Below, one piece after another: positions 20,109 to 62,124 of a DNA stretch of 63,260 bases. The position numbers and the translations under genes were made by a program. The notes under the pieces were generated by a model. That model saw only the letters and a program-made list of their open reading frames with translations. It ran no database searches and was not told the origin of the DNA. Source of the DNA: ANME-2 cluster archaeon. Lineage in GTDB: Archaea; Halobacteriota; Methanosarcinia; Methanosarcinales; Methanocomedenaceae. The stretch spans positions 1 through 63,260 of the forward strand of contig JAAXOC010000088.1 of NCBI GenBank assembly GCA_014237145.1, read 5' to 3'. How positions within the stretch are numbered: position 1 is the stretch's first letter; every line of letters starts with the position of its first letter.

Positions 20109-20130
20109 CACTTTAATTTGTGTCTTAAAA

Positions 20131-20292: not shown

Positions 20293-20293
20293 G

Positions 20294-21327: not shown

Positions 21328-21344
21328 GGACAATTCAATAAAGT

Positions 21345-43477: not shown

Positions 43478-43580
43478 TTACTCCTATTTATAGTATATAA
43501 AGTACAAGAAAATCCTATCTTCTGTTGGATTATAGTCTGGAACCAAATATTCTATACAAATCATATGGACTCTTTTGGCT

Positions 43581-43835
43581 CTTAGCGTCCTTTGCTATAC
43601 AGTATTTCATAAATAATATATTTTAACAGCCGCTGGCAGCGAACAAACACAACTTCCATTCCGCACTCCGGGACCGCCGGATACCCATTCACCCATAAGG
43701 CACCGAAAAGCGCCTGCCAGCCCCCACACCACAGGGGCGGGAGGAGCAGATCGGGACGGGGCACCCGGGTGGAGTGAAGATAAGAGGGGGCGGCGGGAGA
43801 GTCGAAGAAGGGACGTGGGCTGGAGAGTACAGGTA
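43581..43835. repeat. Array repeat, copy A
   Basis: One copy of the repeat found between nearly every gene from 42.8 to 49.7 kb. Order of blocks: CTTAGCGTCCTTTG; ATTTCATAAATAATATATTTTAAC; a GCAGCGAACAAACACAAC block; GGACCGCCGGATACCC; CGCCTGCCAGCCCCCACACC; GATCGGGA-GGGGCACCCGGG; and G-rich GGCGGCGGGAGAG. No coding function. Confidence 0.8.
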
Positions 43836-43883
43836 AGATGTATTATGGGTGCATAAAGAATTTAAAAATCACTCACTTATTCA

Positions 43884-44111
43884 TTAAAGTATTTCTAACA
43901 GATTACCTCGACTCATTCCTGTTTGATGTAAAATATCTAGCAATGTCCCTTTCGCCAGTTCTTTATGCAAAGGAACAACGGTTCTGTAGGTTTTATCCGG
44001 AGTGATTTTTTGTATTGAGACATGGCTCCCCTTTTGCCGCACCTCAACAAAACCCGCTTTTTTTAACGCAGTCACGAGTTCCTTTCCAGACAGTACTGGT
44101 AATCTAGGCAT
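43884..44111 (-). CDS. hicA: HicA-type toxin
   Basis: 75 residues from the ATG at 44111. LPVLSGKELVTALKKAGFVEVRQKGSH contains the catalytic His; VVPLHKELAKGTLLDIL is the C-terminal strand and helix. The start overlaps the end of hicB. Second of three HicAB pairs in the window. The three are similar in length but not close copies, arguing against recent duplication. Confidence 0.88.
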   Translation of the reverse strand: MPRLPVLSGKELVTALKKAGFVEVRQKGSHVSIQKITPDKTYRTVVPLHKELAKGTLLDILHQTGMSRGNLLEIL

Positions 44112-44319
44112 GAGCAACTTCTACAGTAGTCCAGAACGGTCTTGATGTTTCACTTGGCAGGTCTTCTGTACCGAAACTTTCAATATAAAGTTCTATAGCT
44201 TCTTTGATGTTTATTTGTACTTCATCAAGGGTTTCACCCTGGGATGTCACTCCAAGCTCAGGACATCTTGCAATAAAGAATTTATCTTCTTTTTGAATGG
44301 AAATCAGAAATGTATTCAT
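44104..44319 (-). CDS. hicB: HicB-type antitoxin
   Basis: 71 residues: FLISIQKEDKFFIARCPELG and GETLDEVQINIKEAIELYIE are typical of the short HicB fold without a DNA-binding domain. Ends in a TAG that overlaps the hicA start region. The upstream DNA has an AT-rich promoter-like stretch (44330-44360). Confidence 0.87.
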   Translation of the reverse strand: MNTFLISIQKEDKFFIARCPELGVTSQGETLDEVQINIKEAIELYIESFGTEDLPSETSRPFWTTVEVAHA

Positions 44320-44389
44320 AATGTCCTCCAGTTTTGTGATAATATATTATCTTACTATATTTTAACTTCACTGCTTATCTATGATTTTA

Positions 44390-44575
44390 CTAAAATAAAG
44401 TAGTCTCATAAAATGTTGAATTGCGGCCAAAAGCATTGGGAGTAAGAGTTGTCCGGTCAAGTACATTAAGGGCAACGCATGGAGCAAAAAATGGCGGGAG
44501 GCAGAAATCACAATCATATTCAGTACACTGTTTCACATTCCAGACCATCCGGACCCAGGCAACAAGAATCAACAA
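44390..44575 (-). other. Unidentified short ORF between repeats
   Basis: 61 codons on the minus strand, not shadowing another gene, with a Cys/Pro-rich middle (YDCDFCLPPFFAPC) and ALNVLDRTTLTPNAFGR. I do not recognise it. It may be the end of a decayed transposase or another gene cut by the GGCTGCC hairpin repeat that starts at 44574. Confidence 0.25.
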
Positions 44576-44830
44576 GGTTGGCTGCCACCTGCCGCCCTAA
44601 TGGGCTGCGTTGGCAGGGGTAGGGGGTGCCATATGTATTTCTATTGCTATATATTTTTACAGCCGCCGGCGGATAACAAAACATCCACTCCGCACCCACA
44701 GACCGCTGGTACCCATGTATCAGCGAGGCACCGAAAAGCGCCTGCTAGTCCCCACACCACAAGGGAGGTGGAGCAGATCAGGACGGGCACCCGGGCAGAG
44801 TGAAGGCGAGAGGAGGGCTGAAGGCCTGAG
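44574..44830. repeat. GGCTGCC hairpin plus array repeat, copy B
   Basis: 44574-44617 repeats the hairpin of 14405-14446 (GGTTGGCTGCCACC...GGCAGG). 44640-44830 is a copy of the array repeat beginning at TATATTTTTACAGCCGCCGG and running through the CGCCTGCTAGTCCCCACACC and GGCACCCGGGCAGAG blocks. Confidence 0.8.
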
Positions 44831-44960
44831 GTATTTCAAAAAACATACACTTCCTCCGGTATTGGGGGATGGCAGTAAATTTAATCTGCTAACCAGTCAA
44901 TCAAAAGGTTAGCGCCATTTATCATCGGCGTTACCAATTCAGAAATAACGGAGAGATATT

Positions 44961-45503
44961 TTGCAAATAAGACCTACTAAAGAATCAGATTTACATGATG
45001 TATTACTTGTAGAAAAAGCTGCTTTCGGTACTGAAGAAGGCAAAGAAATAGCAGATCTTGTAAATGATTTACTTGTTGATCCAAGTGCAATGCCAATATT
45101 ATCCCTTATCGCAATCAAAGATTATCAGGCCATTGGGCACATCCTATTCACAAAGGCAATAATTGATTCAAATCTTTCAATCTCAGCAGTAATTCTAGCA
45201 CCACTTGCTGTTATTCCTGCTGCTCAATCACAAGGTGTTGGCGGTCAGCTTATTAATGAAGGTCTGAAGTGCTTGTCAGAATCAGGTGTTGATCTGGTAT
45301 TTGTCCTCGGTCACCCAGATTATTACCCACGGCATGGCTTTAAACCAGCAAGTATTCTTGGTTTTGATGCACCTTATCCAATTCAACAAGAGCATGCGGA
45401 TGCATGGATGGTTAAAGAACTTCGCTTTGGTGTTATCGGTAGCGTAAGTGGTAAGGTTCAATGTTCTGATGTGCTAAATCAACCAGAGCATTGGCGTGAA
45501 TAA
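44961..45503 (+). CDS. GNAT-family N-acetyltransferase
   Basis: 180 residues, a YhbS-like GNAT. Starts from TTG/ATG-less context at 44961 (TTGCAAATAAGACC, with GGAGAG upstream). LAPLAVIPAAQSQGVGGQLINEGL is the acetyl-CoA-binding segment (Q-x-x-G-x-G). DLVFVLGHPDYYPRHGFKPA is the conserved GNAT end of this subgroup. Intact. It lies in the array between copies B and C of the repeat. Substrate unknown; no adjacent antitoxin. Confidence 0.85.
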   Translation: MQIRPTKESDLHDVLLVEKAAFGTEEGKEIADLVNDLLVDPSAMPILSLIAIKDYQAIGHILFTKAIIDSNLSISAVILAPLAVIPAAQSQGVGGQLINEGLKCLSESGVDLVFVLGHPDYYPRHGFKPASILGFDAPYPIQQEHADAWMVKELRFGVIGSVSGKVQCSDVLNQPEHWRE

Positions 45504-45539
45504 GCAAATAAATGCTAACAATGCCATAAAAACGGCTGG

Positions 45540-45840
45540 AATTCATTAGTATCTCACCGCAAAGGGTGCAAAGATCGCAAAGGATTATGTTGCATTGGCT
45601 TTGCGTCCTTAGTGTTCTTTGGGATGTATTATTTCATGAAAATTATATTTTAGCAGCCATATGGGCACTTCCCCCGCCAATAACCAGCTTAACATTAATC
45701 AATGAGGCACCACAAAAGCGCCTGCCAGCCCTCACACCACAAGGGCGGGCGGAGAGAGCGGGATAGGCACTCGGACAGAGTGAAGATGAGAGGAGCACCC
45801 GGGCAGAGTGGAGGAGATAGGTGGCGTAAAAAGGGATGGG
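45540..45840. repeat. Array repeat, copy C, with CGCAAAG palindrome
   Basis: 45554-45632 is an imperfect palindrome (ACCGCAAAGGGTGCAAAGATCG / GGCTTTGCGTCCTTAGTG), followed by the TTTTAGCAGCC, CGCCTGCCAGCCCTCACACC and GGGCAGAG blocks of the array repeat. The remaining 45841-46013 is AT-rich promoter-like DNA for the RelB gene. Confidence 0.8.
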
Positions 45841-46013
45841 AGCAAAAATTTTAATTGTATATCTATAAGATTATGTACTCAAGTAAATCTGACCGTAGCG
45901 AGGGATTTCTTGTAAGTCATAAGCTGAGTTAGTTATTTTTAGTATAATGTGTGAGTTGAACAAGGGAGAATTAGAAATAGTTGAAGATAGTATATTATAT
46001 TCAGGCGATTCAC

Positions 46014-46220
46014 ATGGATTCAATAGTCGAGGATAAAAATGCCGTCAATATTCTATTAGGAACACTTGAAAAACTGGATGATGAGATTGAATCAGCAATA
46101 GACACCCTTGAGATTATGAGTGACCCTGAAACTTTGAACAACATCGAAGAAGGTTTAAGGGACATAAAAGAAGGACGGTTTATAACATTTGAGGATTTTC
46201 TGAGTAAACATGGATGCTGA
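46014..46220 (+). CDS. RelB-like antitoxin
   Basis: 68 residues from the ATG at 46014. Acidic and helical, with the C-terminal NIEEGLRDIKEGRFITFEDFL pattern common in archaeal RelB-type antitoxins (compare the gene at 47092). The stop codon lies inside the toxin start region (10-bp overlap). No clear DNA-binding N-terminus can be read. Confidence 0.75.
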   Translation: MDSIVEDKNAVNILLGTLEKLDDEIESAIDTLEIMSDPETLNNIEEGLRDIKEGRFITFEDFLSKHGC

Positions 46221-46470
46221 ATACAGTATAATTTTATCAAATAAATTTGATAAGACTTTTTCTCAATTGGATAGAGTTTCTCAGAAGCGAATCATTGAAA
46301 GATTAAAGGAACTTTCAAAGAATCCTAAATCTGGTAAGCCTTTGAAGGGCAGGTTCAAAGGTATTAGGTCATTGCGTGTAGGAAAGTACCGAATTTTATA
46401 TGATATTCAGGAAAATCACCTTATAATAGTGGTTATTGCTATGGGCCATCGAAGAAATGTTTATGATTAG
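46210..46470 (+). CDS. relE: RelE/ParE-type toxin
   Basis: 86 residues, canonical RelE fold: FDKTFSQLDRVSQKRIIERLKEL, then GKPLKGRFKGIRSLRVGKYRILYDI and the C-terminal VIAMGHRRNVYD with the catalytic Arg/Tyr region. Predicted ribosome-dependent mRNA nuclease. Paired with the overlapping antitoxin at 46014. Confidence 0.88.
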   Translation: MDAEYSIILSNKFDKTFSQLDRVSQKRIIERLKELSKNPKSGKPLKGRFKGIRSLRVGKYRILYDIQENHLIIVVIAMGHRRNVYD

Positions 46471-46499
46471 ACCTTTTTAATTCAACTGCTATTGAATAA

Positions 46500-47040
46500 A
46501 TCGTATATATCTTATATTTCAACAGCCATGGCGGCACTTGCCCTAACAACAACCAGCCGAACATGAATCCCCATCGTTTCACAGCAGATAGTGAGGTCTG
46601 GGCAATGACATTCATACATCCACGAGGCATCACAAAAGCACCTGCCAGCCCCCACACCACAAGGGCAGGCGAAGCATATCGGGAGGGGCACCCGAGCAGA
46701 GTAAAGGCGAGAGGGGGCGGAGGGAAAGACGAAGAGGGGACGGGGCTGGAGTTCATTAGTATCTCACCGCAAAGGATCCTAATGCACTGGCTTTGCGTCC
46801 TTTGCGATCTTTGCGGTGCAGTATTATATAAATAATATATTTTAACAGATTCCAGCAGCGAACAAACACAATTTCCATTCTGCACTCCAGGACCGCCGGA
46901 TACCCATGCATCCGCGAGGCACCACAAAAGCACCTGCAAGCCTCCACACCACAGGAGCGGTTGGAGCAGATTGGGAGGGGCACCCTGGTTGAGGGGAGGG
47001 AAGAGGGGGCGGAAGGAGAACTGAAGAATGGATCGGGAAG
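46500..47040. repeat. Array repeat, copies D and E in tandem
   Basis: D spans about 46500-46755 and E about 46765-47035, head to tail. E begins with the cleanest palindrome of the set (46765-46818, ACCGCAAAGGA...CTTTGCGGT). Both have the AACAGCC/ACAGATT start, the CCTGCCAGCCCCCACACC-like block, CGGGAGGGGCACCC and the G-rich end. The 46471-47091 interval has no supported gene. Confidence 0.82.
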
Positions 47041-47091
47041 TACCGTATATAGCAATATATATTAAACATATAACATCATATAGGCAACTAT

Positions 47092-47328
47092 ATGAATGCC
47101 ACAACAACAATCTGCCTAGATCCTAGAGTTAAGGATATGTTGACATCTCTAAAACATTATCCTCGTGAATCATATAGCTCCGTTGTGAAGAGATTGGCAA
47201 ATATGGCGATTGATGAAGAATCACTCAGCGACGAAGCGATAAATGGCATAGAAGAAGCACTGGAAGATATCAAACAGGGGCGACTGCACACCGAAGAAGA
47301 AATTCAGAAAGAGTTTGACCTGTCATGA
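47092..47328 (+). CDS. RelB-type antitoxin with ribbon-helix-helix-like start
   Basis: 78 residues: TTICLDPRVKDMLTSLKHYPRESYSSVVKRL looks like an RHH DNA-binding motif (residues 4-33), then an acidic helical tail GIEEALEDIKQGRLHTEEEI that would wrap the toxin. Probably autoregulates. The stop overlaps the toxin ATG. Confidence 0.85.
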   Translation: MNATTTICLDPRVKDMLTSLKHYPRESYSSVVKRLANMAIDEESLSDEAINGIEEALEDIKQGRLHTEEEIQKEFDLS

Positions 47329-47591
47329 GCTATAAGGTCAAGTACACATCTAAAGGGAAAATGGATCTTAAAAAGCTCCCTCTAGGTGTTGCACAGAGCA
47401 TAATTCTATCGATTCATGACATTAAAAATGACCCCTATTCTTATGTAAAAAAGATAAAAGGGACAAAAAGTCATCCTCTTTACACTCACCGCGTTGGTGA
47501 ATATCGGGTAATATTGGACATTATTGATGATAGTCTGTTGATCATAGTGATTGAAACGGGTCATCGAAGCAAAATCTACCGGAAATATTGA
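47325..47591 (+). CDS. relE: RelE/ParE-type toxin
   Basis: 88 residues: YKVKYTSKGKMDLKKLP, a KKIKGTKSHPLYTHRVGEYRVILDI core and VIETGHRSKIYRKY at the C-terminus, all typical of RelE. Second RelBE-type pair in the array. It differs clearly from the 46210 toxin, so the two came in independently. Confidence 0.88.
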   Translation: MSYKVKYTSKGKMDLKKLPLGVAQSIILSIHDIKNDPYSYVKKIKGTKSHPLYTHRVGEYRVILDIIDDSLLIIVIETGHRSKIYRKY

Positions 47592-47637
47592 TTCGATGAA
47601 ATTCACATTTTTTTCATACATTAATTGTCTAATTTAT

Positions 47638-48060
47638 TATTTATATAGCCATGGCGTAGCCCCCCACCTGCAACCACCCACCCAAGCATCCATTTCCATT
47701 TCGCACCCAAAGCCCGCAGGAATAATCGAAAAGCGCCTGCCAGCCCCCACACCACAAGGACGGGCGGAACAGATCGGGAGGGGCGACAGGAGAGCTGAAG
47801 AATGGATGGGGGCCGAGTTTCATTATTTGGTTCAGCGCAAAGGATTCTACTGCCATGGCTTATCGTCCTTAGCGATCTTTTCGGCATAGTATTTCATATA
47901 CAATATATTTTAACTGCCGTCGGTAGCTAACAAACATAACATCCACTCCGCACCCTCGGACCGCCAGATAACTGTGCATCCATATGGCACCACAAAATCG
48001 CCTGATGGGCCTGCATAGCACAAGGGGGGAAGTCGAGGCTTGGAGTACGTTGAAATGGGT
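47638..48060. repeat. Array repeat, copies F and G in tandem
   Basis: F (about 47638-47830) and G (about 47833-48060) are head to tail. G opens with a degraded palindrome (GCGCAAAGGATTC...CCTTAGCGATC) and the ATTTCATATACAATATATTTTAAC block. No gene supported in 47592-48102. Confidence 0.78.
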
Positions 48061-48102
48061 AGCAGGCTTGAGTTAAGCAAGAAGAGGAGTTAGAGTATAA
48101 AA

Positions 48103-48327
48103 TCACAAAAGTTTAACAAATTCATCGATTGTTAAACCAGCATCTTTAATTAATCTACTTAGGGTCTCTTTCTTCATTGGATTATGTAATGGAACTGTAA
48201 GTTTAATTATATCATCACCTTCAATCTTTTCCAATCTTACATGGCTTCCACGCTGCCTGACTTTTACAAAACCAGCATTTAAAAACGCCTTAATTGCTTT
48301 CTCGCCTGAAATGACTGGTAACTTCAT
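48103..48327 (-). CDS. hicA: HicA-type toxin
   Basis: 74 residues: LPVISGEKAIKAFLNAGFVKVRQRGSHVRLEK with the catalytic His, then LTVPLHNPMKKETLSRLIKDAGL. Closest in pattern to the pair at 14729. Its start is 13 bp after the hicB stop. Confidence 0.88.
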   Translation of the reverse strand: MKLPVISGEKAIKAFLNAGFVKVRQRGSHVRLEKIEGDDIIKLTVPLHNPMKKETLSRLIKDAGLTIDEFVKLL

Positions 48328-48340
48328 TTGATATACCTAG

Positions 48341-48550
48341 CTAGACAGCAACTTCAGCGACTTCGGCACTATTAGCTAAAACCGGATTTTCGATTGGTTC
48401 CAAATATAATTCAATAGCCTCTTTGATGTTCTCCAGTGCTTCTTCTTTACTATCACCTTCAGAAATACATCCGGGAAGAGAAGGTACATATACTACATAG
48501 CCACCCTCTTCAGCTAATTCCAAGACTACTTTAAAAATCAATATTTTCAC
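48341..48550 (-). CDS. hicB: HicB-type antitoxin
   Basis: 69 residues with VVLELAEEGGYVVYVPSLPGC and SKEEALENIKEAIELYLEP, very like the HicB at 14953. Upstream AT-rich DNA (48545-48585, reading left) gives room for a promoter before the next repeat copy. Confidence 0.88.
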   Translation of the reverse strand: MKILIFKVVLELAEEGGYVVYVPSLPGCISEGDSKEEALENIKEAIELYLEPIENPVLANSAEVAEVAV

Positions 48551-48584
48551 CTTGCAATTAATTAGGTGTTTTTAGATATAAATA

Positions 48585-49035
48585 TGGCGACATCTGCCCC
48601 ACCACCAACCAACAGAACATGAATCCCCATCATTCTACAGTAGAATATGAGGTCCGGGCACTGACACCCATGCATCTACGAGGCACCACGAAAGCGCCTA
48701 CCAGCCCTAAACCACAAGGGCGGTTGGAGCAGATCGGGAGGGGCACCCGGGCAGAGTGGAGGGAGGAGGGGGCGGAAGGAGAGCTGAAGAATAGGGGGGG
48801 CTGGAGTTCATTAGTATCTCATCGCAAAGGATTCTAATGCCCTGGTTTTTCGTCCTTTGCGGTGCAATATTTCATAAATAATATATTTTAACAATCGCCG
48901 GCAGCTAACAAACATAACATCCACTTTGCACCCCCGGGCCGCTGGATACCTATGTATCAGCGAGGTACCACAAAAGCGCCTGCCAGCCCGCACACCACAA
49001 GGGCAGGCGATATGGGGCGGCAGACCCAACCATGC
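48585..49035. repeat. Array repeat, copies H and I in tandem
   Basis: H is about 48585-48810 and I about 48821-49035. A palindrome (48821-48864) and the ATTTCATAAATAATATATTTTAAC block mark the junction. The remaining 49036-49194 is the leader of the NTF2-like gene with GGAGGGAG before its start. Confidence 0.82.
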
Positions 49036-49194
49036 AATCATCCCCGCTTCGCACACACCGCCCACACTCAGCCGAGCCAGAATCCCATGCATTTCGCACA
49101 GGCCCATCTTGTCAGTAATTACTGCATAACTATCTGCATCCCAAAACGAGCCCTTTTTTGTATAATTAACACATAATTTGAGAGAGGAGGGAGA

Positions 49195-49614
49195 ATGATG
49201 AATAAACAAGAGAATGTCCGGTTATTGAAGCAACACTTTGAGGCCTTTGGCAGGGGTGACCTCCCTGCTGCACTGGATTTTGTAGCAGACGATGTAGATT
49301 GGCAATCACCGGTAACGCGAACTGAATCACAGAATATCTCATGGGCCAAACCTTGTCATAGCCGTGAAGAGGTTTCTTTATTTTTCAAAGAATTATATGA
49401 AAAAGTACAACCGGAAGGTATGGAGATATTTGATTTTACTGCCCAAGGTGATCGAGTAATTGTAGAGGGAAGAAATCGTGGTATTGTAAAGTCCACGGGC
49501 CATAGTTACGACCATGATTGGGTGATGGTATTCACTTTCAAGAACGGAAAAATTGTACGGCATAGACACTATTATGATACAAATGACATACTGGCAGCTT
49601 TTCGTAAGAAATGA
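49195..49614 (+). CDS. SnoaL/NTF2-like fold protein
   Basis: 139 residues, a single NTF2-like (ketosteroid-isomerase) domain: VRLLKQHFEAFGRGDLPAALDFVADDVDWQSP, the FFKELYEKVQPEGMEIFDFTAQGDRVIVEG core, and DHDWVMVFTFKNGKIVRHRHYYDT. Such proteins bind small hydrophobic ligands or act as isomerases or dehydratases. GGAGGGAGA precedes the ATG ATG start. Function here unknown. Confidence 0.85.
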   Translation: MMNKQENVRLLKQHFEAFGRGDLPAALDFVADDVDWQSPVTRTESQNISWAKPCHSREEVSLFFKELYEKVQPEGMEIFDFTAQGDRVIVEGRNRGIVKSTGHSYDHDWVMVFTFKNGKIVRHRHYYDTNDILAAFRKK

Positions 49615-49629
49615 ATCCTATAGAATGCC

Positions 49630-49715
49630 TAATTAATCAAAAAGCTCCTGCCAGCCCCCACACCACAAGGGCGGTTGGAGCAGAGGGGGATGGCAGGGGA
49701 GCTGGAGGAATAGTA
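49630..49715. repeat. Array repeat, partial copy J
   Basis: Only the CTCCTGCCAGCCCCCACACC ... GGTTGGAGCAGAGGGGGA ... GGAGCTGGAGGAA part is present. It marks the right boundary of the repeat array; no further copies are seen in the defence cluster beyond. Confidence 0.75.
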
Positions 49716-49770
49716 GAAAAAACAAATTTTGAACAATGAGAATAAATAACTAAAGCTTTATAAGGAAAAT

Positions 49771-50433
49771 ATGAACCTTTCATTAAAAAAAGATTTTTTT
49801 AACGGTGCCCTTCTGAAATGGTATGAGCAAAACCACAGAGACTTTCCATGGAGAGGAGTATTAGATCCATATGCAATATTAATCTCAGAAATACTACTAC
49901 AAAAAACAAGAGCTGAAAATGTCGTTACAGTGTTTAATAAGTTTATTGTGAAATATCCCGATGTTGACAAACTTTCTACAGCTTCCTTTGCCGATATAAA
50001 AAATGAAATAAAAATACTAGGTTTATATACCCAACGAACCACTAAAATCCAGAATTTAGCAAAAATCTTGAGTGAAAAATATAATGGAAAAATTCCAGAT
50101 AATAAAAAAGAATTATTAGAACTTCCAGGTGTTGGTATTTATATTGCAAATGCAGTACTATGTTTTGCATTTAATTGTGATGTTCCTTTATTAGATACAA
50201 ATATTGGTAGAATTATTGAAAGAGTTTTCTCAGTTAAAGTGACTGGAGAAGAGAGGAAAAAAATTCGGGTGTGGAACTTAATAGCTGAATTCCTACCAGA
50301 GGGTAAATCGAGGGAATATAATTATTCTTTAATAGATTTTGGGGCCAAGGTATGCACAGCTAGAAATCCTAAACATAATTTGTGCCCGCTGATTGAAATC
50401 TGTGATTATTATTCAAAGATAAGGAATAAATAA
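49771..50433 (+). CDS. HhH-GPD mismatch DNA glycosylase, MIG (T/G)-like
   Basis: 220 residues of the MutY/Nth superfamily. HhH motif LPGVGIYIANAVLCFAF around residues 120-136, catalytic Asp in LLDTNIGRIIERVF, and the N-terminal FPWRG and LLQKTRAENV blocks. After LPGVG stands Tyr, as in the archaeal T/G-mismatch glycosylase MIG, where MutY has Ser. The C-terminal cluster motif reads C-x6-H-x2-C-x5-C, with His at the second of the four usual cysteines. It faces a C5-cytosine methyltransferase gene 54 bp away, as MIG does in Methanothermobacter, fitting repair of deaminated 5-methylcytosine. Confidence 0.85.
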   Translation: MNLSLKKDFFNGALLKWYEQNHRDFPWRGVLDPYAILISEILLQKTRAENVVTVFNKFIVKYPDVDKLSTASFADIKNEIKILGLYTQRTTKIQNLAKILSEKYNGKIPDNKKELLELPGVGIYIANAVLCFAFNCDVPLLDTNIGRIIERVFSVKVTGEERKKIRVWNLIAEFLPEGKSREYNYSLIDFGAKVCTARNPKHNLCPLIEICDYYSKIRNK

Positions 50434-50487
50434 CAATATAAATAAGTGGTACAGTTGAAATAAGTTTTTTAATTGTTTTATAATGTG

Positions 50488-51654
50488 TTATATAAATGCT
50501 TTCAACAGAAGATCATAAAGTGATTTTGCTACATGTCTGGCAAGTGGAACTGGGACGCCATTTGCTATCAAAGCATATTTTTGGGTTAATGCTATTTCAG
50601 AAGGTAGTATATATGTATCAGGTATTCCCTGTAACCTCATTGTTTCCCTAACTGTAAGCCTCCGTTTTTCCCAAGGATGGATATGAACTTCATTATGTCC
50701 ATAACAAGCAGTTGGACTATATCTATAACGGTGAAGGCGCTTGAAGGACTTTCTGTTTGTATCTCCTTCCTCTATTGTATTAAATTTATTTGAATATGGC
50801 TTAAATCCTTCTTTTCCATTTGGCAGTTTGTCTGGTGGATTGCTGCCGCTAAGTATATGGTATATCATTAGTTCATCAGGTATTCCGGCAGGTTTTTCAG
50901 GGATCTTATTTTTTTGTACAATAGTTGGCCAATCAAACATTTTTTTTGCATTTTTATACTGAGGGCATTCAGGCCATGGAAACCACCCCCTTTCTTTTTG
51001 TTCTAACTCCCGATTAAGAAATGTTTCTGAAAGATGATGCTTTATACCAATGATAAATAATCTCTCGCGGTCTTGTGGTAGTCCCAGTTCAAGCGCATTC
51101 AAAATACGCAAATCAAGATTGTATCCATTTTCTTCAAGCTGATTCTCTAGCTTTGCAAGAAACTTTCGATGTTTTTTGGTCCGGAAGAGCCCTGCCACGT
51201 TTTCAAACAAAAAAAAATCTGGTTTGATTTCACATATGCGGTCAATATAAACATTGGATAGAGGGCCATGAATACCATTATGCCCCCGATTCTTTCCCCC
51301 TATGCTGAAATCTGGGCAAGGCGGTCCTCCAATCATCCCGAATAGTTCTGGTATTTTCAGCGGAAAAGCTGCTTCAATAATATCACACGTAGCTATATCA
51401 ACAATACTACGTCGGTCGCTGATCTTCGCTTGTTTCGAATTTGGACTGGAAGAATGTCTCCATGTCGTCATACCATATTCATGCATGTCAGCAAAAACTG
51501 GATTACACTCATTGTTCCAGACAATTTTAAAACCAGCTTGCTCGAACCCCAAGTCAAGAAATCCTCCACCTGTAAAGAAAGAAAGTACAGGAATCTCTTT
51601 CATTTTAAATTTTTTATTTGCAAATTCCTGAGTATTAACTGATTGAGATACCAT
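50488..51654 (-). CDS. DNA (cytosine-5) methyltransferase
   Basis: 388 residues with the C5-MTase motifs: I FFTGGGFLDLGF (about 27-38), IV GGPPCPDFS (about 109-117) with the catalytic Cys, VI FENVAGL (about 149-155), VIII QDRERLFIIG (about 195-204), IX/X RRLTVRETMRLQGIPD and IANGVPVPLA. Gly and Pro instead of the usual Q after the catalytic Cys (PPCP not PPCQ) is a variant. It starts 4 bp after the nuclease gene and is the last gene of the defence transcript, where it would mark self DNA. Confidence 0.93.
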   Translation of the reverse strand: MVSQSVNTQEFANKKFKMKEIPVLSFFTGGGFLDLGFEQAGFKIVWNNECNPVFADMHEYGMTTWRHSSSPNSKQAKISDRRSIVDIATCDIIEAAFPLKIPELFGMIGGPPCPDFSIGGKNRGHNGIHGPLSNVYIDRICEIKPDFFLFENVAGLFRTKKHRKFLAKLENQLEENGYNLDLRILNALELGLPQDRERLFIIGIKHHLSETFLNRELEQKERGWFPWPECPQYKNAKKMFDWPTIVQKNKIPEKPAGIPDELMIYHILSGSNPPDKLPNGKEGFKPYSNKFNTIEEGDTNRKSFKRLHRYRYSPTACYGHNEVHIHPWEKRRLTVRETMRLQGIPDTYILPSEIALTQKYALIANGVPVPLARHVAKSLYDLLLKAFI

Positions 51655-51658
51655 TTTA

Positions 51659-52747
51659 TCAGCTCATCGAATAGATGGTGGTAAAAAGTCCTTCTTCATA
51701 GTTGCCGGAGATATTATCTGCAATTAAAGAATATATGAATACTTTATCATAAGAATTATTAAGAACTGGATGTCTTTTGGGGTGCAAACCCCTAACTTTT
51801 ATGGTATTAGACTGACCGTCAGGTATGATTGTAATTAATATAAGTCCATTTCCCAATCTCTTTTTATCTACAACTATTCCTTTTACATCATACGGCCAAT
51901 CAATTTCTTGTTCAACCTCTCTCTGTTCCCAGTAAGGGAGGCAGCCCGGCCGATAGGAACAAAACCTACATCTTTGTGGGGAGGGTGATGCTAGCCGATT
52001 TAACATCAATTCATAACTTTCGGTCGTATTCGTGATTATTGAATTGATCTTTTTTAGAATATGACCAGCTTCAATTAATAAATCTGAACATTCATCTTCA
52101 TCAAACTGAATCTCATAAGATTCTCCATTCGTCCCTACGACTTTTAAAGACACTGGCCACTTAGCATACATTGAATTATATAAAGCAGCATAGAGTTTTA
52201 ATTGTAATTGAATATTTTCATGAATACTTGGTTCAGGCGAGTTATTCTCGGATTCAATTATTGAGCCTGTTTTATAGTCTACTATTACATCTCCTGCATC
52301 TGTAGATATTATTGCATCTGCATATCCTCCGACTTTTCCGTCTGGAGTCTGTAACCAAACTTCTTCTGATTTTGTTGTATGGAAATTGCCCGTAATCTCA
52401 AAATGTGGTAATTGAGATGGAATCATATTACGCATAATTAGTAAGCATTGTTGTTTTTTAACTTCGTAGTTTTGAACAGATTTTTCAAGGGGTACAAAAT
52501 GTTTCTCCATCCAAGAAAGACTCATCTGAACCTCCTCTTCCTGTATATAACTATCCCAATCAGTTTTGAAATCATCATCTCCAGTGATTTCTCCACCGCT
52601 TGATTTCTCGAATATTTTATGAATAACTGTCCCAAGATGAGCTGAAGGATGGGTAGGCAGTAGTGTGTTAGCTTTGTTGGATTGCAAAATTGCTTTTAGC
52701 TTGCATTCATTGAAGGCAGAAAACTTGCTCGGAGTAATTCGTTTCAA
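51659..52747 (-). CDS. PD-(D/E)XK nuclease (RecB/Cas4-like)
   Basis: 362 residues. ITPSKFSAFNECKLKAIL at the N-terminus, a conserved HLGTVIHKIFE (His-containing motif I), GGYADAIISTDAGDVIVDYKTG (catalytic D...D-Y-K), and the C-terminal cysteines CRFCSYRPGC with the N-terminal Cys that could bind an Fe-S cluster as in Cas4/AddB. It lies between the giant helicase and the methyltransferase on the same strand. The candidate effector nuclease of the system (inference). Confidence 0.85.
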   Translation of the reverse strand: MKRITPSKFSAFNECKLKAILQSNKANTLLPTHPSAHLGTVIHKIFEKSSGGEITGDDDFKTDWDSYIQEEEVQMSLSWMEKHFVPLEKSVQNYEVKKQQCLLIMRNMIPSQLPHFEITGNFHTTKSEEVWLQTPDGKVGGYADAIISTDAGDVIVDYKTGSIIESENNSPEPSIHENIQLQLKLYAALYNSMYAKWPVSLKVVGTNGESYEIQFDEDECSDLLIEAGHILKKINSIITNTTESYELMLNRLASPSPQRCRFCSYRPGCLPYWEQREVEQEIDWPYDVKGIVVDKKRLGNGLILITIIPDGQSNTIKVRGLHPKRHPVLNNSYDKVFIYSLIADNISGNYEEGLFTTIYSMS

Positions 52748-52785
52748 TGGTTCAATTGATAAGATGACCGGAAGTATGCAAGATG

Positions 52786-55700
52786 TTATGAATCCACATC
52801 CTTTTCAAGTTCAGTGCGACACCATCCTGGTCTTCGTAGCAGATTAAAAGTATCCAAGTAGTCCGGTTCCGGTCCGTTTCCTGCATTTGCAACTGCTTCT
52901 GCAAGAATTCCACGCGGACTATGCGTATCCCAGAGTGGATGGACAATAATGACATTTCTGTTTCCAGCTTTAAACCCAGGCAAAGAGCCAAATGTATGGG
53001 GTTGGTATTTAAATTGTGAGGCAAATGTATCTGATTCTTTTTTGGCGAAATCCAACCAACCATCTAATTCTGGTGTTTCAAAATGGCAATCAAGCCCGCA
53101 TAAATACTTTTGGTCATGCAGTACACGCAGGTAAGCCAAGCCAAGACGCCAATCTAGTAGACCGTGATATGTCATGTTGCGGTACACTTTGAGGCAATCA
53201 TAACACGCGGAATTGCATTTTTTACGGTGTGACTCAGAAGCAATTACCCATGGAAATGAATGTGGGTCAGGGTGCAGGATTCCATATAACAGTTTATCCC
53301 AGTCACTGCAGGCTTCGCGAACAAAACCTGCACCGTTAGCTAGACGGTCACTCAAAGCAATTTCACCTACATATTCACCATCAATTTCATGACGCTGTAA
53401 ATTGCAGATTTCGATTTCTTCAGGATCTATATCCATATTATCTGCGATAGTTGCTCTCAAAAGGAATGCAGCAGAGTAAATAGCTGCTTTAACACCGCCT
53501 TTTGATCTCATATGATCAAGGTTTAAACCCAGAGGAACTTGGGAAGGCATGAATCTTAAAACATCTGTAGTCTTACCAGCTAGAATTGCTATTTTTTCTA
53601 ATTTTTTTGGTTGCTCTGTGCTAACACCAGCAATATATTCTGATGATATCCATTGATTGTGAAAATTGAGATAAGGCTTTTTTATTAACCCGCTTGTTGG
53701 GTATGAGTATCCTTCTGTTGTAACTTCTGCTCCCTCAAAAAAATTTCCTGCATTATCGTTGATACGCCATACACGGGAATCAGAAGAAAAATTCACTTTG
53801 CAGTTGGACCTCTCAATTGGAGAAAATCTTGTTCGGGAACTCTCTGTCACAGTGGACGGAATACCGGGAAAAATATCTCCCCATTCCTTTGCATCCTTAC
53901 CTCTTGATAAATCAGTCCGAAATGCTAAAGGTGTTACTGCACAATAACGTTTGAAATACTGTCCTTCTGGCTCTCCACAATTTCCACAATTAATACACTC
54001 AATAGATTCAGTTAAAGGTTGTTGAAATTCATTTGTTTCCATATTGCCACATTTAATACATCTTTCTATCCATATACGCATTGGCAAAGGATTATTAGAA
54101 ACAGTCTGCCATTTTCCGATTCTTTTTACAAAAGGTGCTGTAAATCCTATTGCAGTATGAACAGCCTTATCTTTTGTTTTTTGTGCACCTGGAGCAAACT
54201 CTGTGATGGCCAGCTCTAAGTCACGATCTATGGTAAGCGAATCGTCTTTACGTAATCCATGATACAGTAACCGGGTGCGTGATGGCATTCCGTACATAGG
54301 TAGGATACCAGCTTCTGCAAGTTTTTCTGCTAATCCATCTCCAGCAAGTTCTGGATTGTCGAATGCTTTGTTGATATCACAAGGTAGTTTACCACTAAGA
54401 TGGTGTAGCCATTCCTGGATTTCTTGCTGGTTCACATCTCCAATAAGTGCCCTAATAACTTCTTCTCTATACATGTCAGTTTGCAGCCAGCTAGTGACTT
54501 TTTGTTGAATGCTAGGCCAGCTAGTGACTTGCCCGAATTCACCGTGACTGTCAGTCGAGTTTGGATTGTCCCACCACCGCACATCAGCATTCCGAAATGC
54601 TTTGCGCAGGCATTCTTTGGCTAACAGACGCTGAATAATTCTCTGCTGACCCATAGTAAGGAAAGGTACAGGTGGAGAATCACCTGTAATACGACAGGGA
54701 TTGGCAAAATAATATTCATCATGGCTGCGGCCTCGACAGAGGGTGAGAACTGTAGCGAAAGCCTGACTGCGACGCCCTGCCCGCCCGACTCGTTGCTGGT
54801 AGTTAAAACGAACAGGAGGCATGTTTGCCAGCATAACAGCTTGCAAGTCTCCTATATCCACTCCCACTTCCATTGTAGTCGTAACGCTCAGGACATCAAT
54901 TTCATCGACTTGCTTTACATACTCCGTTTCCTGCCCTTCAACAAGCATACCGCGGAAAAGTCTCTGGCGTTCAGCCTGATCGTTTGTTTGTGCAGTTAAT
55001 TCCTCACAGTGTAACCTGAGTGGGAAGCGCCTGTCTGCAGCTGTACGTGCCAGATAATTGCGCTCCCAGATGTTTTCACAGGTATCACCGGGTTTTTCAT
55101 CGAGTTTTGATTGACAGTTTGTGCAGATGCCTGCTGAATAGTGCAAGTGCGTACGGTGACAGTCGGGACAAATCCAAACAGGATCATCTGAAAGACATAC
55201 TTTAATATCAAGGCTACTTATATGGATTTTACCGTTTTGATGGCCGACTTCGCGAAGTACAGAAAATATTGCAGATCCAACATCAGTTTCATTTTTTTCT
55301 AACTTCCTACAAACTGCCCGGACATAATTTTTGAATTTTGCACTGGAATCTTGATAATCTGGCCAGTCATTCGGCTCATAATCTGATCCTTCATGGCGGT
55401 ATGAATCACCCAATACCCTCAAAACAGAATCGCATATCTGCCGGAAAATCTCTAATTGTTCTTGCTGGATGCCTGCTTTAGCTGCATAGATTGAAAGTTC
55501 GCTGTTTTCAATCTTCAATTTTATAATGCCAAGCCCTGACGATTCCAGACTAAAATAAAGTCTGCTGAAAAACAGACTGGCCAGTCCTTTTCTAATTTCT
55601 GTGCGAATTCTCTCTTTTGCACGCTCTGCATCTGGTGGGAGCTTAGCATTCCATCTCTTTTCATTAAAATCAAAAAGGTTAGTCCATCGGTGCCAGTCAT

Positions 55701-57504
55701 CTTCCCACTTGAATTCCTGCACATCTAGATCATTTCCCGCCGGATTGATTCCTGTATCAATGAGTTTCTGGATAAGCCGTCCACACCCGGCATTACTATC
55801 TTGCGCCGGATAGATCAAATCGCTTACGGGAATTACCCTCAACTGCCCCCGCCTTTTTATGCCATCAATCCTTTTTTGAGCATCATTGAGAGCCTTGTAC
55901 ACAGGTTCACGGTACGCCTCATGCAAATTTGCAGGAATGCCAGCTTTAATTAATTCAATATCTTTAAGGATTGCAATATCCGCTCCTGGATATTCTTCTA
56001 AATATTCTAGTGCAAACGGAGAATATGCACGGTTCTGTTCAATATCATCAAGCAGCTTTGGCTCTCCTATTGCAGCAACGATTAGTTCCCGTATGAAAGA
56101 TTCCCTAAGTAAATCTGAATAATGGTTGCGCTCAACACCGTTTGAAATTTGCGCAGCGTCTTCGCGACTGTCAGAGAACGCTAAAAGTTTGCGGTTTTCT
56201 TCTGGCAGCTGGTAAAAAAGCTCTTTTGTAAATATCTGGCTAACCTTTGAAAAACCAGTCCTAAACCCGCGGACTGGTGATCTTCGCTGGCGTCCAGAGT
56301 GGTCTTTTGCACAAAAAGCACAGACTGAAGGGAGGGCAGCAAAAGAATCTTTTGATTCAGTCTCTACGAAGCTTTTTCTGCTTATAGAGCCTATTTGAAA
56401 AACATACCCTTTCACCCAATATTCTGGATCTTCCTCATGCAAAAGTCGAACCCTCCCTGAGCGTGAGTCGAGGCTTGCAGCATTCCAACATCCTTTTTCT
56501 TTGTCGCTTTTGCTTAAATTGGGCTGATTCCATTTCTCTGCCCCTTTATTAAAATTCGAATCGCCACATGGCCAGAATACAGCAAAATTTCGATATGTTT
56601 GGCGTTCCACAAACCGTGCTGCCTGCCTGTCGGGGATTCCTTCTATGTCTGGGTCTGAAGATAATATCTCAATATCACCATCCGGAAGATATAGCTTGTT
56701 TCCACCGAAATAAACTGTACCGCAGTGTTCGCAATAGAGTAGTTCTAACACTCTAATATGTGTATCACTAACGATTGTTGAGGATGGGTACAGTTTCCCC
56801 ACAGGCCTGCCATCGTCTGCATTTTCAGGTGGCTTGGTCGATGCCCAAAGTCCTTCTATATTGCGAAAAAACCAGTGAAGCCGGAATGAAGGCAGTGTTG
56901 ATTCCTGCCCGATAGTGTCGCATATGCTACGGGCTGCAAGAAGACCGCGCACAGCTTCACGTCTATTTTGATCATTTCCAAAAAGTCGTGATGCAAAGTA
57001 ATTAAGAGAAACGGCACGGGTAGTTCCTTCGTACTCACATGCATTCAGCATTCTGGAGGCAATGCACATATCATCCGATTCCATTTGTTCTTTCAAAGCC
57101 AACTTCCCTGATTGCACATCTCCTTTATAACCAAGAGAATATGCTGTATTCTGACAGGCATCCTCAGGAAAATCCGGTGCTTTTTTACCGAATGTAATAA
57201 AAGGTTCTGGTGGCAAAAAAGTATAGCCGGTAACAGGTGGAATCGGTTGGTTACGACCCTCTATTATCTCAAAACTATTCGCTGATGCACCAAAAAAGTC
57301 ATGCAAAAATTTACGGCTTTTTGGATCATTAGAATCTAGAGATGCGCTAGACCCAAGGATGCGTAATTTTGGATGATCTAGTGTAAGGCCTAGACGGAGC
57401 AGCAGCAACCTCAAAAGATATGCCACCTCAACGCCGGCTGTCCCCCGGTAAAGGTGCAGTTCATCGATAATCAGGTGGAATACTCTCTCTTCCCCTCCAG
57501 CCAA
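52786..57504 (-). CDS. Giant helicase, downstream part, with DUF1998 (DruE-like)
   Basis: 1572 residues in the same frame as the gene ending at 57511; the two are one protein split by a TGA. This part begins just before the DEAH-type box VIDELH-like [13 protein letters not shown], then SSAS (motif III), and later [11 protein letters not shown] (motif VI, about residue 905). Several CxxC pairs suggest zinc sites. The C-terminal third has the DUF1998 signature [14 protein letters not shown] and [10 protein letters not shown]. Combined length is about 1,910 residues, the size of DruE helicases of Druantia systems. The TTG at 57504 is only a formal start; the Walker A motif is in the other part. 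Confidence 0.85.
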
Positions 57505-57510
57505 CCATTG

Positions 57511-58521
57511 TCATGTTTTCTCGAAGATTGCTTCATCTGCTTCGCGCATGAGCATAATGCTCAACATTGAAAAGTTTGTTATTAACACGTCGGGTGGTGA
57601 ATCCTGCATATCCCAGCGGGAACGCATTTCAGAACCATCGAGTCTTGGAAAATAGAATTTAGCATCATTTTCACCAGTTTCCAAGGAATGTTTTTCGGCA
57701 GCTTTCGCAGCATAATCCATTTCCTTCAAAGATTTAGTAAGTTTTTCTATTCTCTTCTTATCTGGATTGCCAGGTTTTGTGAATTCATGTCCTGGAATAG
57801 GTGTGCTACTGTTATAACGTCCGAAATATATCTTGTTCCCTTGCCGATCATTCTGGAACCACTTTCTGGCATCATCTGAATCGAGAGCTTTTCGAAGCCT
57901 AGTAAGCTGATCTTCAACTAGAGCATTCATTGGATAAATAATAAGTGCGCGAACTGCTGCTTCACGCTTTTCATGACCGCGCTGAGGAATTCTATAAGTG
58001 TGCTGAATTCGTTTGTTATCACCGATACAGGAATTCTGCCATTGCGTATCATTCCACCAGTTATTGACACGGGAGTCTGGAGTGCCTGGAGCTTCCCACT
58101 TGGATGATTCGCGGGAAAGATAGGCAAAAAGGGGAAGAAGAAATGATTCAGTTTTGCCTGAACCTGTGCCTGCGGTAACAATACAATTATTGCAGTCTAG
58201 TGTTTTTTTAAGCATTTCGGCCTGATGGGCATGTAGTTCGTAGTCTTTGAACAAACCGCACGAAACTAAAGACTTAAAGTCAGTTATTTCCTGCTCATTC
58301 AATCCTGAAAGATCTTCTTCTGCTAAACTTGAAATAGTCTTTCCGGATTTTTGATACACTGGCAACGGTTCAATCCACGGTTCCTGGCACATAACCCTTG
58401 GTTCCCGCAGAAGTGCTTCCCTTTCATCCTCTATGTAAGGAAAACGAGTACCAAACGCGGTCTTTATGTATAAAATAAAGTTATCTCTTATTGTATCAAA
58501 TGCACCTATTTGATCTTTCAT
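57511..58521 (-). CDS. Giant helicase, upstream part, truncated at in-frame TGA
   Basis: 336 residues ending at TGA (57511-57513). Contains Walker A TAGTGSGKTESFLLPL (about 116-131), IIYPMNALVEDQL (motif Ia) and ITNFSMLSIMLMR. Its final EADEAIFEKT would continue without a gap into [13 protein letters not shown] of the downstream frame, the family's usual IF-x-x-T-x-x-WL. Alone it lacks the DEAH box, so it cannot be an ATPase. It overlaps the end of the 338-aa gene by 4 bp. Real nonsense mutation, readthrough or assembly error are the options. Confidence 0.85.
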   Translation of the reverse strand: MKDQIGAFDTIRDNFILYIKTAFGTRFPYIEDEREALLREPRVMCQEPWIEPLPVYQKSGKTISSLAEEDLSGLNEQEITDFKSLVSCGLFKDYELHAHQAEMLKKTLDCNNCIVTAGTGSGKTESFLLPLFAYLSRESSKWEAPGTPDSRVNNWWNDTQWQNSCIGDNKRIQHTYRIPQRGHEKREAAVRALIIYPMNALVEDQLTRLRKALDSDDARKWFQNDRQGNKIYFGRYNSSTPIPGHEFTKPGNPDKKRIEKLTKSLKEMDYAAKAAEKHSLETGENDAKFYFPRLDGSEMRSRWDMQDSPPDVLITNFSMLSIMLMREADEAIFEKT

Positions 58522-59534
58522 GATATCACTCCTTTTCTGTCAGACGAAATACTGTGCGGTACTAAATCTTGTGATAATTTTCTTGAAATCATTTTAGCAA
58601 TAGGCGGAGTGACGTCATAATAAATATCCATTTGATGTCCAGCAGGTAATCCTCCTATAGGTTCTTCGCCGATTGGTGCGGGTACTGGAGCCATTCCGGT
58701 ACAAAGTGTAACAGCTCTTGCCAAAAAACGGGGGAGAGGCACCGTTGACGGCACAGCTAATCGATGATACCGTTCATCATAAATCATGACATTCTTTTTT
58801 TGAGATGCAAGAATAATATATCTTCCCCAATCACGATCCACTTCAGCTGTCTGGTTATTATCCCACACCCAGTGCTTTCTTTGCTGGTTCACAGGATTGA
58901 CATAGGAAACGAGTTTTTGAATATTATCACAATTACGATTCGAAAATGTTAGTGAATCAGTAGAAAAAGTTTGTTTCTTCCAGTTAATATCATCTCTACG
59001 TTCAAAGATAAGATTTTCCATGATATTTTTAATCCCGACTGAAAAATTAGCCAAAGACCATGCTACAGGTGTCTCCAGATAATGATATATTTGAGTGGCA
59101 AGTGATACATTTTTTATGTATTCATAGTCAACTGCCTCTATGTAGATGGCTGAAGGCAAAAAAAGGTACTCGTTGTTCTGTTGTGTTTCGCTAAATGAAA
59201 TTGAATCACGATTTGTCCGCACGAAATTTTTTATATCCTTAATTAATGATGGAACTCTGGCCCCGGTCAATATCGCTTTAGGGAGGCCAGATGTCGGCAA
59301 TGCTACTAAAGAAGGTGAACAGGCGAAAACCCGGCGGTTATCAAAATCGAAATCACAATGACCCAGTGAATCGAAAAGCCTGATAGTTTGGCGTCGGACA
59401 TAATTCAGGTCAACTTCTCGATTAGACATCATCATTGATTGACTCAATCCATTAAAGGCAGTATTAAACTTGTCAATATTCATATTGCCAAATGTACTAA
59501 TGGTTTGTAAAAGGAGTTCAGACATGTTTTGCAA
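58518..59534 (-). CDS. Unrecognised defence-cluster protein (338 aa)
   Basis: 338 residues, starting 17 bp inside the end of the 687-aa gene and overlapping the helicase gene by 4 bp, so tightly coupled. I see no catalytic motif. Features: an N-terminal helical stretch with RRQTIRLFDSLGHCDFDF, LPTSGLPKAILTGARVPSLI, and a Pro-rich end APVPAPIGEEPIGGLPAG. By position it would match DruF or DruG of a Druantia II-like cluster. Function unknown. Confidence 0.7.
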   Translation of the reverse strand: MQNMSELLLQTISTFGNMNIDKFNTAFNGLSQSMMMSNREVDLNYVRRQTIRLFDSLGHCDFDFDNRRVFACSPSLVALPTSGLPKAILTGARVPSLIKDIKNFVRTNRDSISFSETQQNNEYLFLPSAIYIEAVDYEYIKNVSLATQIYHYLETPVAWSLANFSVGIKNIMENLIFERRDDINWKKQTFSTDSLTFSNRNCDNIQKLVSYVNPVNQQRKHWVWDNNQTAEVDRDWGRYIILASQKKNVMIYDERYHRLAVPSTVPLPRFLARAVTLCTGMAPVPAPIGEEPIGGLPAGHQMDIYYDVTPPIAKMISRKLSQDLVPHSISSDRKGVIS

Positions 59535-61581
59535 CCTCTTGGCATTTTATCCACATATCCTTGATTTTTTTAATTTTTGGAGCATTTGTCCTCCTACGCC
59601 TATTCCAGACAGCTTCCCTCCATCGCTTTATAGTTCTCGTATCAGGTGAAGCAAAATCTTGTTTGGAATTATCTTCTGTGATACCAAGTTGACCACAAAA
59701 ATGAACATTCCAGCTATCCTTTCCAGACTTTGCGACTGCCCACACAGGATGCCAGTCTTCTGGCATTTTCTCATTTGGCCATTCTACAATTTCACCAGGC
59801 TTGTTCCCTAAAAATACGATTGTTTTTGATAAGTAGGTAGGAAGTGTGTGTGGAAAAACGCCCCAATTCGATGGATCAATTCCTGCAACAATGGCACCAC
59901 TTGCATATGGAACTGAAATATCATTAATCAATATCTTGCCAGACATATCCCTCAGTGGTGTGTCTTTGAAATCAGCCGGAAGTTCTGGTTCCTTTAATTC
60001 GATTCTACGTCGTTTCAAAATAGTTCCGTTTTCATTAAACACTTCGATAATCAATGGACTCCCTATTTGTGTATCACTTGGAAGATCCCAATGAGGTATA
60101 GTCGTATCGTTTCGTATAAGCTCACACCCATCTAACATGACCTGCTCGTTACCATACCCTCTTTCTAAGATGATAGTCGGCGGTCCATAACTTAAAAAAG
60201 AATTGCTCCGACCAATTTTAATACCCCCATATAGGCGTAATTTTAAAAGTTTAGAAAGGGTTAACACATCAATACTTTTACATGAGGCATGTCCATCCTT
60301 GCCACCGAATAACAACCACTCATGAGGGAGCCCACTTGATGTTTTTTCGTGAAACTCTTCACATGATATGTCGCCCCATTCCCGTATTTTATTAGCTATA
60401 CTACTATGGCATGCTACTAGAAATTCACACCCCCTCTCCAGCTGTTGCGATTCAATCCAATCAGGAAGTCTTTCTCTCTTCCCTCGCAAAAAAAGCCTTA
60501 CTGGATTTGCTTTGAGTCGTGCAATAAACTTATTTTCTTTATCCTCAAATTTAGCACCATTTCCCCAATCAATTGTTGCAGCATCAAATGGCTGACTGTG
60601 TAGTACTCCTTTAAGTTTCGTTGACCAATTGGGCGGGGCAGTTTCCACGCATGAATATAATTCACCCTGATATTCAAAATTAAGCCCATCATCAGGAAAT
60701 GATCTATTAACCTTAAGTCTCAATGTCGAAGTGACCACACCTGAGAACTTGTCAAGTTCAAGGCATATTCGTAGTCCTACACGAGAATTTTGTTGGTGAG
60801 GCTGTGAAGAGTGTTGATTATCTAATAAAAAGTCCGGTAATGAACCATCCCACTCAGTGAGTTCATCAAGGACGAATTCTATTAGTGCATTTTTCATTTC
60901 AGTATTCTCGGTTTGTGAACTATCCAAAAGGCGTAGTGTGCGCTTTGCGAATATATTTTCTCCGTATTTTTGTAGTATTCGTGTCATCACATCATCAGAG
61001 GGATTATCGGTCGGATCGAGTTCAGCTTTATCAAATATTAAAGGCAAATATTTTCGTTCACTGTCTGAAAAGAGGGTCTGAGATAATGGACGTCCAATAT
61101 GCTTCATGCCCCCACGTATACGTGCAGTAAAGCGCCCCCATTCCTCATGCTTGTCTTCAGTACTCCATTTTTCTAGGTCTTCCCACAATATTTCAGTTTT
61201 ACCAAACTGTCGCGGGGTGCCAGACTTATCGATTTCACCCAGCAATTCCCAAAATCTAGGGTAATAAGCTTTTTGATTGAAATCCCCTTCAGTGGTTGCT
61301 GCAAGGACAAAAAATCCTAAATATGCTATATATGGTGGATACTCCAGTTCATAATCTCTCCAATTGCTAAATAATTTAAGAGCTTTCTGGCATAAACCTC
61401 CATTTTCGATCCAATCTGGGCCAACTTTAATACATTGAATAAAATCTTCAACATCAGCACCTGCTGCCATCCCCAACTGTTCTATCATTTCTTTATTGAC
61501 ATAAACTAATACTTCTCGGCCTGCCATTTCATTATTAAAGAATTTTCTTGCTATAAGGTCATTCCATTCGAAATATTTCAT
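59518..61581 (-). CDS. Unrecognised defence-cluster protein (687 aa)
   Basis: 687 residues, first gene of the defence transcript. The N-terminal 180 residues are helical and acidic (YPPYIAYLGFFVLAATTEGDF; FWELLGEIDKSGTPRQFGKT). The C-terminal 300 are strand-rich with many Trp/Pro, and the end is basic (RTIKRWREAVWNRRRRTNAPKIKKIK), possibly DNA-contacting. No family recognised. Position and size fit a DruF/DruG-type component (inference). The upstream 61590-61680 is very AT-rich and would carry the operon promoter. Confidence 0.7.
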   Translation of the reverse strand: MKYFEWNDLIARKFFNNEMAGREVLVYVNKEMIEQLGMAAGADVEDFIQCIKVGPDWIENGGLCQKALKLFSNWRDYELEYPPYIAYLGFFVLAATTEGDFNQKAYYPRFWELLGEIDKSGTPRQFGKTEILWEDLEKWSTEDKHEEWGRFTARIRGGMKHIGRPLSQTLFSDSERKYLPLIFDKAELDPTDNPSDDVMTRILQKYGENIFAKRTLRLLDSSQTENTEMKNALIEFVLDELTEWDGSLPDFLLDNQHSSQPHQQNSRVGLRICLELDKFSGVVTSTLRLKVNRSFPDDGLNFEYQGELYSCVETAPPNWSTKLKGVLHSQPFDAATIDWGNGAKFEDKENKFIARLKANPVRLFLRGKRERLPDWIESQQLERGCEFLVACHSSIANKIREWGDISCEEFHEKTSSGLPHEWLLFGGKDGHASCKSIDVLTLSKLLKLRLYGGIKIGRSNSFLSYGPPTIILERGYGNEQVMLDGCELIRNDTTIPHWDLPSDTQIGSPLIIEVFNENGTILKRRRIELKEPELPADFKDTPLRDMSGKILINDISVPYASGAIVAGIDPSNWGVFPHTLPTYLSKTIVFLGNKPGEIVEWPNEKMPEDWHPVWAVAKSGKDSWNVHFCGQLGITEDNSKQDFASPDTRTIKRWREAVWNRRRRTNAPKIKKIKDMWIKCQEVAKHV

Positions 61582-62124
61582 GTTTTTTCCCCATCTTTAA
61601 TTAATTAATTGATATAATAGTACAAATTAATTATATATTATTACTAATTTTCGTTCTAAGTATTTTAGAGTTTCTAATTAATACTCGAACAATCCTAAGA
61701 AATATTTAATTCTATGATCATTAAAGGTATCTTTAGACTGATATTATTACTATACTCTTCTCCTTTACCTCAATACAGTGCAGATCACACACCCTCATCA
61801 CCTAGCATCCCCTACCACATTTACTCTTCTTATAGCAAACCACACACCTCTCATCCTCACGAACCACCCTCTCCCCTATATCTCCTAAAACCCCCCGTCC
61901 ATATCTCCTCAAAGCTCCCGCTCCAACCCACCCTTCACCATACTTCCCAGGCTGGTCAGGACACCTCCATAACGTGCCGTCACATCCGGTACAACAATAA
62001 AGCATCCCCACCGGGGCAGAATCGTGGATGCCTTCGTCCTGTCACAAGGTCTCGGTTACGGAAAATACTTTCCCATATCCACGCGCAGGTCCTTTTTAGC
62101 ATCCATTCCTATACTGACACAGTA
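61582..62124. other. Promoter region plus C-rich, G-poor stretch without a supported gene
   Basis: 61590-61720 is AT-rich, a likely promoter zone for the minus-strand defence operon. From about 61750 to 62020 the plus strand is strongly C/T/A-rich and G-poor, which opens artefactual frames on both strands, including a Cys/Gly-rich minus frame at 61802-62011. I see no RBS or family resemblance. Confidence 0.5.

Follow-up and report, generated by a model that had tools for sequence, protein, structure and literature searches.

Does the in-frame stop codon inside a giant helicase gene of an ANME-2 cluster archaeon mark a defence gene that was recently lost, or one that is switched, recoded, read through or misassembled? 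The window (i.e. the whole 63,260-nt stretch of contig JAAXOC010000088.1 that was analysed) carries on its minus strand a gene of 1,911 residues when read through, from an ATG at 58521 to a TAA at 52786, in which the sole internal stop is a TGA at codon 337. The minus strand from 57520 to 57501 reads GAAAACATGACAATGGTTGG, and the codons around the break are GAG AAA ACA TGA CAA TGG TTG with the TGA at 57513-57511 (-), as a first-pass annotation of this DNA had reported. That annotation had also claimed homology on both sides of the stop in a single frame, which was borne out by the DruE profile PDLC00014: profile positions 1-343 match residues 1-336 (E 1.9e-132) and positions 351-1925 match the 1,572 residues downstream of the TGA (E 0). 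Since both open stretches fit consecutive parts of one profile, the continuity of the frame across the TGA is not due to chance. The stop lies inside the first RecA domain, with motif I on one side (Walker A, GTGSGKT; residues 118-124, 58170-58150) and motif II on the other (DELH box; residues 353-356, 57465-57454), again as had been proposed.

The interrupted gene, which that annotation had called a giant helicase without naming it further, is druE of the Druantia antiphage systems. Its product, an SF2 helicase, is the sole component common to all Druantia subtypes (PMC13192584). It lies in a cluster with the gene order druF-druL-druE-druK-druM, joined by a gene for a Mig-like T:G glycosylase (Table 1). 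Each of the remaining Druantia genes (druF, druL, druK and druM) has an uninterrupted, full-length reading frame, in agreement with the earlier claim that the cluster is otherwise intact. PADLOC defines type IV Druantia as DruE together with DruF and DruL (PMC8565338), and all three were recovered here, with PDLC00014/15/51 matching DruE end to end across the TGA, and PDLC00054 and PDLC00056 matching DruF and DruL. The locus resembles type IV in that druF, druL and druE adjoin one another in a single operon and all three match their profiles strongly; it differs in the broken druE, the added druM and druK, and the Mig-like glycosylase, which is absent from the PADLOC definition. With type II (DruM, DruF, DruG, DruE) it has in common the DruM cytosine methylase (PDLC00030), a type II requisite, as well as DruF and a DruE2-type helicase, whereas DruL is found instead of DruG, for which there was no match among the six proteins scanned. 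The type III DruE of E. coli and M. smegmatis differs in being intact, with its own partner DruH and its own C-terminal nuclease domains. We refer to the cluster as type IV-like Druantia with an added methylase. A further archaeal genome, from the phylum of the window organism, shares the six genes and their order (locus L047). Our literature searches found no paper combining Druantia, ANME and defense systems, and nothing specific on inactivated antiphage systems.

Table 1. Coordinates of the interrupted helicase gene, its neighbours and other features of the window.
Feature	Position	Strand	Remarks
GNAT acetyltransferase	44961-45503		among GC-rich repeats
SnoaL-like protein	49195-49614		among GC-rich repeats
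Mig-like HhH-GPD mismatch glycosylase	49771..50433	+	adjoins druM; best PDB match 1kea, E=1e-48
druM, cytosine-5 DNA methyltransferase	50488..51654	-	PDLC00030 E=2.3e-132; PF00145
druK, PD-(D/E)XK nuclease	51659..52747	-	PDLC00060 E=3e-25; PF12705
druE, DruE2/DruE4-type YprA-family helicase, interrupted	52786..58521	-	1,911 codons; PADLOC DruE E=1.9e-132 (N part), E=0 (C part)
C-terminal druE fragment	52786..57504	-	1,572 aa from first in-frame TTG; with DELH box and Helicase_C
In-frame TGA, druE codon 337	57511..57513	-	CGA (Arg) in L022; Arg/Lys in other homologues examined
N-terminal druE fragment	57511..58521	-	336 aa; with Walker A
druL	58518..59534	-	PDLC00056 DruL4 E=3.2e-107; its TGA stop overlaps druE ATG
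druF	59518..61581	-	PDLC00054 DruF4 E=2.5e-225

Comparison with close relatives had been suggested as a check on the stop, and it proved informative. The only close relative found, L022 (JAUWQD010000062.1, Methanosarcinaceae archaeon CSMAG_2493, a metagenome-assembled contig with a stated coverage of 15), is 93% identical at the DNA level over 12 kb (window 49682-61735 versus L022 433-12495) and shares all six genes and their order. It differs from the window in carrying a sense codon, CGA (Arg), at the site of the TGA. The L022 druE has a lesion of its own, a 1-nt deletion at or next to window position 57595 (about codon 309), which shifts the frame 28 codons upstream of the TGA site, and no slippery heptamer that might allow frameshift rescue was seen there by eye; the other druE indels between the two loci, of 9 and 6 nt, are both in frame. 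Because each locus is sound at the lesion site of the other, the two lesions are independent, the TGA in the window copy and the deletion in the L022 copy. This parallel inactivation of a sister locus is the one mildly surprising point in a picture that is otherwise mostly ordinary. The L022 genome is rated as belonging to the order of the window genome, which would thus contain Methanosarcinaceae, and is filed under a different family, so that a 93%-identical block in both reflects either recent horizontal transfer of the cluster or a misbinned contig. One end of the block lies in the GC-rich repeat described below, the other a short way upstream of druF. No further close relatives of druE were found in a viral-contig protein scan or in a pattern scan, and phages yielded one distant, partial match only.

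More distant homologues were used to gauge how often druE is interrupted. Three overlapping sets of archaeal genomes (100, 186 and 393) were searched and provided eight further full-length archaeal homologues, of which three are 65-68% identical (G049, G052, G358) and five 45-49% identical (G019, G308, G335, G437, G377), and all eight are uninterrupted. At the TGA site, L022 and seven of the eight have Arg, and G377 has Lys. Fifteen of the 16 plasmid-borne bacterial homologues examined are likewise whole, which indicates that breaks are uncommon. The remaining one, from a Hymenobacter plasmid (L102, NZ_CP095048.1 45539-51020), is annotated as two genes in overlapping frames, split at about residue 935. 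Breaks were thus seen in one of 24 other homologues as against both members of the window/L022 pair, a post hoc comparison that involves two loci.

Between the window and L022, dN/dS was 0.239 for druE overall and 0.236 for druF, druL, druK and druM pooled; within druE, it was 0.252 before the breaks and 0.237 after them. The share of druE divergence that could have been neutral was estimated at approximately zero, with a bootstrap upper bound of about 9%. Purifying selection equal to that on intact neighbours suggests that each lesion is recent and that druE was working until very recently in both lineages. This equality dates the lesion and does not prove it, as an equal dN/dS would also follow from an assembly error, a stop carried by a minority strain or readthrough of high efficiency.

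The reading that we favor, with a probability of roughly two in three, is a recent nonsense inactivation of druE, the helicase gene of an archaeal type IV-like Druantia, through a C-to-T change at a CpG in an otherwise intact cluster. Recent inactivation was among the options offered by the first-pass annotation, and it is supported by a stop unique to the window, the CGA of L022, the Arg or Lys of the homologues and a dN/dS like that of the neighbouring genes. A single transition would have converted the Arg codon CGA to TGA. The first RecA domain would thereby have been cut after motif I and before motif II, which recently disabled the ATPase and left the other genes of the cluster whole. 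In the cell, DruE would then be truncated and the Druantia system of the window organism presumably off. In the mycobacterial type III system, five of six DruE point mutants tested (K119A, D225A, A292D, A1016D and C1516A) greatly reduced phage defence, the exception being P800A (PMC13316683). If point mutations can cripple defence in this way, then by analogy a stop that separates motif I from motif II should abolish the system here. We infer that its loss was neutral or favoured, owing to the cost or autoimmunity of an unneeded defence. Intact DruH-DruE is toxic to the host upon expression of a phage trigger protein (PMC13316683), which provides one reason why inactivation could be favoured; a comparable advantage in this cluster may be supposed from the type III case.

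A route for the mutation itself is possible because the cluster encodes a cytosine-5 methyltransferase: deamination of a methylated cytosine may have aided the C-to-T change at the CpG. In the 12-kb comparison with L022, C/T differences (not polarised) affected 56 of 706 CpG cytosines versus 203 of 3,811 other cytosines, a mild CpG excess that is compatible with deamination of DruM-methylated cytosine and is no proof of it. The Mig-like glycosylase would normally counter such deamination. Its gene is divergent to druM and lies beyond it, and the nearest solved structure to its product is that of an archaeal G-T mismatch glycosylase (1kea), with the tyrosine of PGVGIY aligned with PGVGKY of that enzyme. 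A Mig-like T:G glycosylase gene next to druM was observed in the window, L022 and L047, and the pairing suggests that a safeguard against the deamination of methylated cytosines is conserved in this variant of Druantia.

The favored reading was weighed against several others. It is unlikely on balance that the TGA stems from a mistake in assembly or consensus calling, or from a base of a minority strain that entered the consensus, in a population whose druE is intact. The assembly of the window genome is a draft of 118 contigs, L022 is a metagenome-assembled contig, and the druE of each, constrained in all other respects, has a single lesion; yet the change is a plain C-to-T substitution away from long homopolymers, and no other broken gene was noticed in the druE cluster. 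Consensus substitution errors are rare in short-read assemblies, which also counts against such an error. Reassignment of TGA was rejected, as it terminates 19 of the 35 window genes, including three of the druE operon (druF, druL and druK). A selenoprotein was likewise rejected: no tRNA-Sec scored above cut-off in the genome, where the weak matches were ordinary Gly, Ser, Arg and Leu tRNAs, and the nine homologues aligned at the site have Arg (8/9) or Lys (1/9). Typing with ARAGORN, which needed to allow introns for several tRNAs, gave no suppressor with a UCA anticodon among the tRNAs typed, an incomplete set (no Trp tRNA typed, L090 untyped). Readthrough at TGA-C, basal or programmed, would yield some full-length DruE and make the stop a dampener rather than a knock-out. 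A passage of PMC10471768, citing Belinky et al. 2021, describes TGA as in general the leakiest stop, argues that basal readthrough of nonsense codons is common in prokaryotes and holds that nonsense substitutions there need not mean pseudogenization; the constraint on druE is also kept on both sides of the TGA. However, the stop is not conserved among relatives, the RNA downstream folds no better than shuffled sequences (z 0.15), no dedicated decoder was found among the tRNAs searched, and demonstrated stop-codon readthrough in archaea has been described only for selenocysteine and pyrrolysine (PMC8211752). We thus regard readthrough, which the first-pass annotation had listed as an option, as improbable, and its programmed form as being without positive support.

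The same holds for phase-variable switching, also raised in that annotation: there is no simple repeat tract in 57400-57620, and druE is present as a single copy in the window genome, leaving no donor for recombination. A broader version, in which this segment of druE is a switch or mutational hot spot and defence is toggled by frequent mutation, draws on the two independent lesions only 28 codons apart in sister loci (two random positions among 1,911 codons fall this close with a probability of about 0.03, a post hoc figure with n=2) and on the rarity of interruptions in other homologues. Given that the lesions differ in type, one a substitution and the other the loss of one base, and that neither repeat nor donor copy is at hand, we judge it highly unlikely. 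Only marginally better odds would be given to the related idea of a lineage of mobile archaeal Druantia IV clusters in which druE is inactivated time and again, perhaps reversibly, in the stretch from motif I to motif II, with defence mostly off, by mutation or recoding, and restored when needed. Lastly, the two halves might be made separately, by reinitiation at the TTG at 57504, and reassemble into a working split helicase. This in-frame TTG lies three codons past the TGA, and a figure legend in PMC12458937 describes split helicases elsewhere in the YprA family; the break, however, falls inside RecA1 and parts motif I from motif II, the eight other archaeal homologues all lack a split at this point, L022 has a sense codon, and translation of the C-terminal fragment would have to start from a rare start codon that shows no sign of use. 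We attach the least credence of all to this arrangement.

Profile matches usually decide whether a defence cluster is counted as present, and by that measure both the window and L022, a sister pair from archaeal draft genomes, score as Druantia despite a broken essential motor gene. If the lesions are true, recent nonsense or frameshift loss of druE in the two loci would be a clear, small case of parallel and very recent loss of a defence system in which the partner genes and the methyltransferase persist, and would caution against counting such loci as active. What is known of Druantia itself would be unchanged by the finding.

Beyond the cluster, nine copies of a GC-rich repeat (matching core of about 57-170 nt) occur in window 43545-49721, spaced 0.3-1 kb apart and parting small genes, among which HicAB-like and RelE/ParE-like toxin-antitoxin pairs were recognized by eye. 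In the host genome the repeat has 25 matches. Two relatives from the host's family have 21 and 9, the L022 genome has 11, and two other genomes of the host's order have none. The region resembles a cassette array; no integron integrase was found above cut-off. A Type I restriction-modification cluster (HsdM, HsdS and HsdR) spans 15554-24650; between M and S it includes a YhcG-family PDDEXK nuclease (DUF1016). A nitrogenase cluster is also located on the window.
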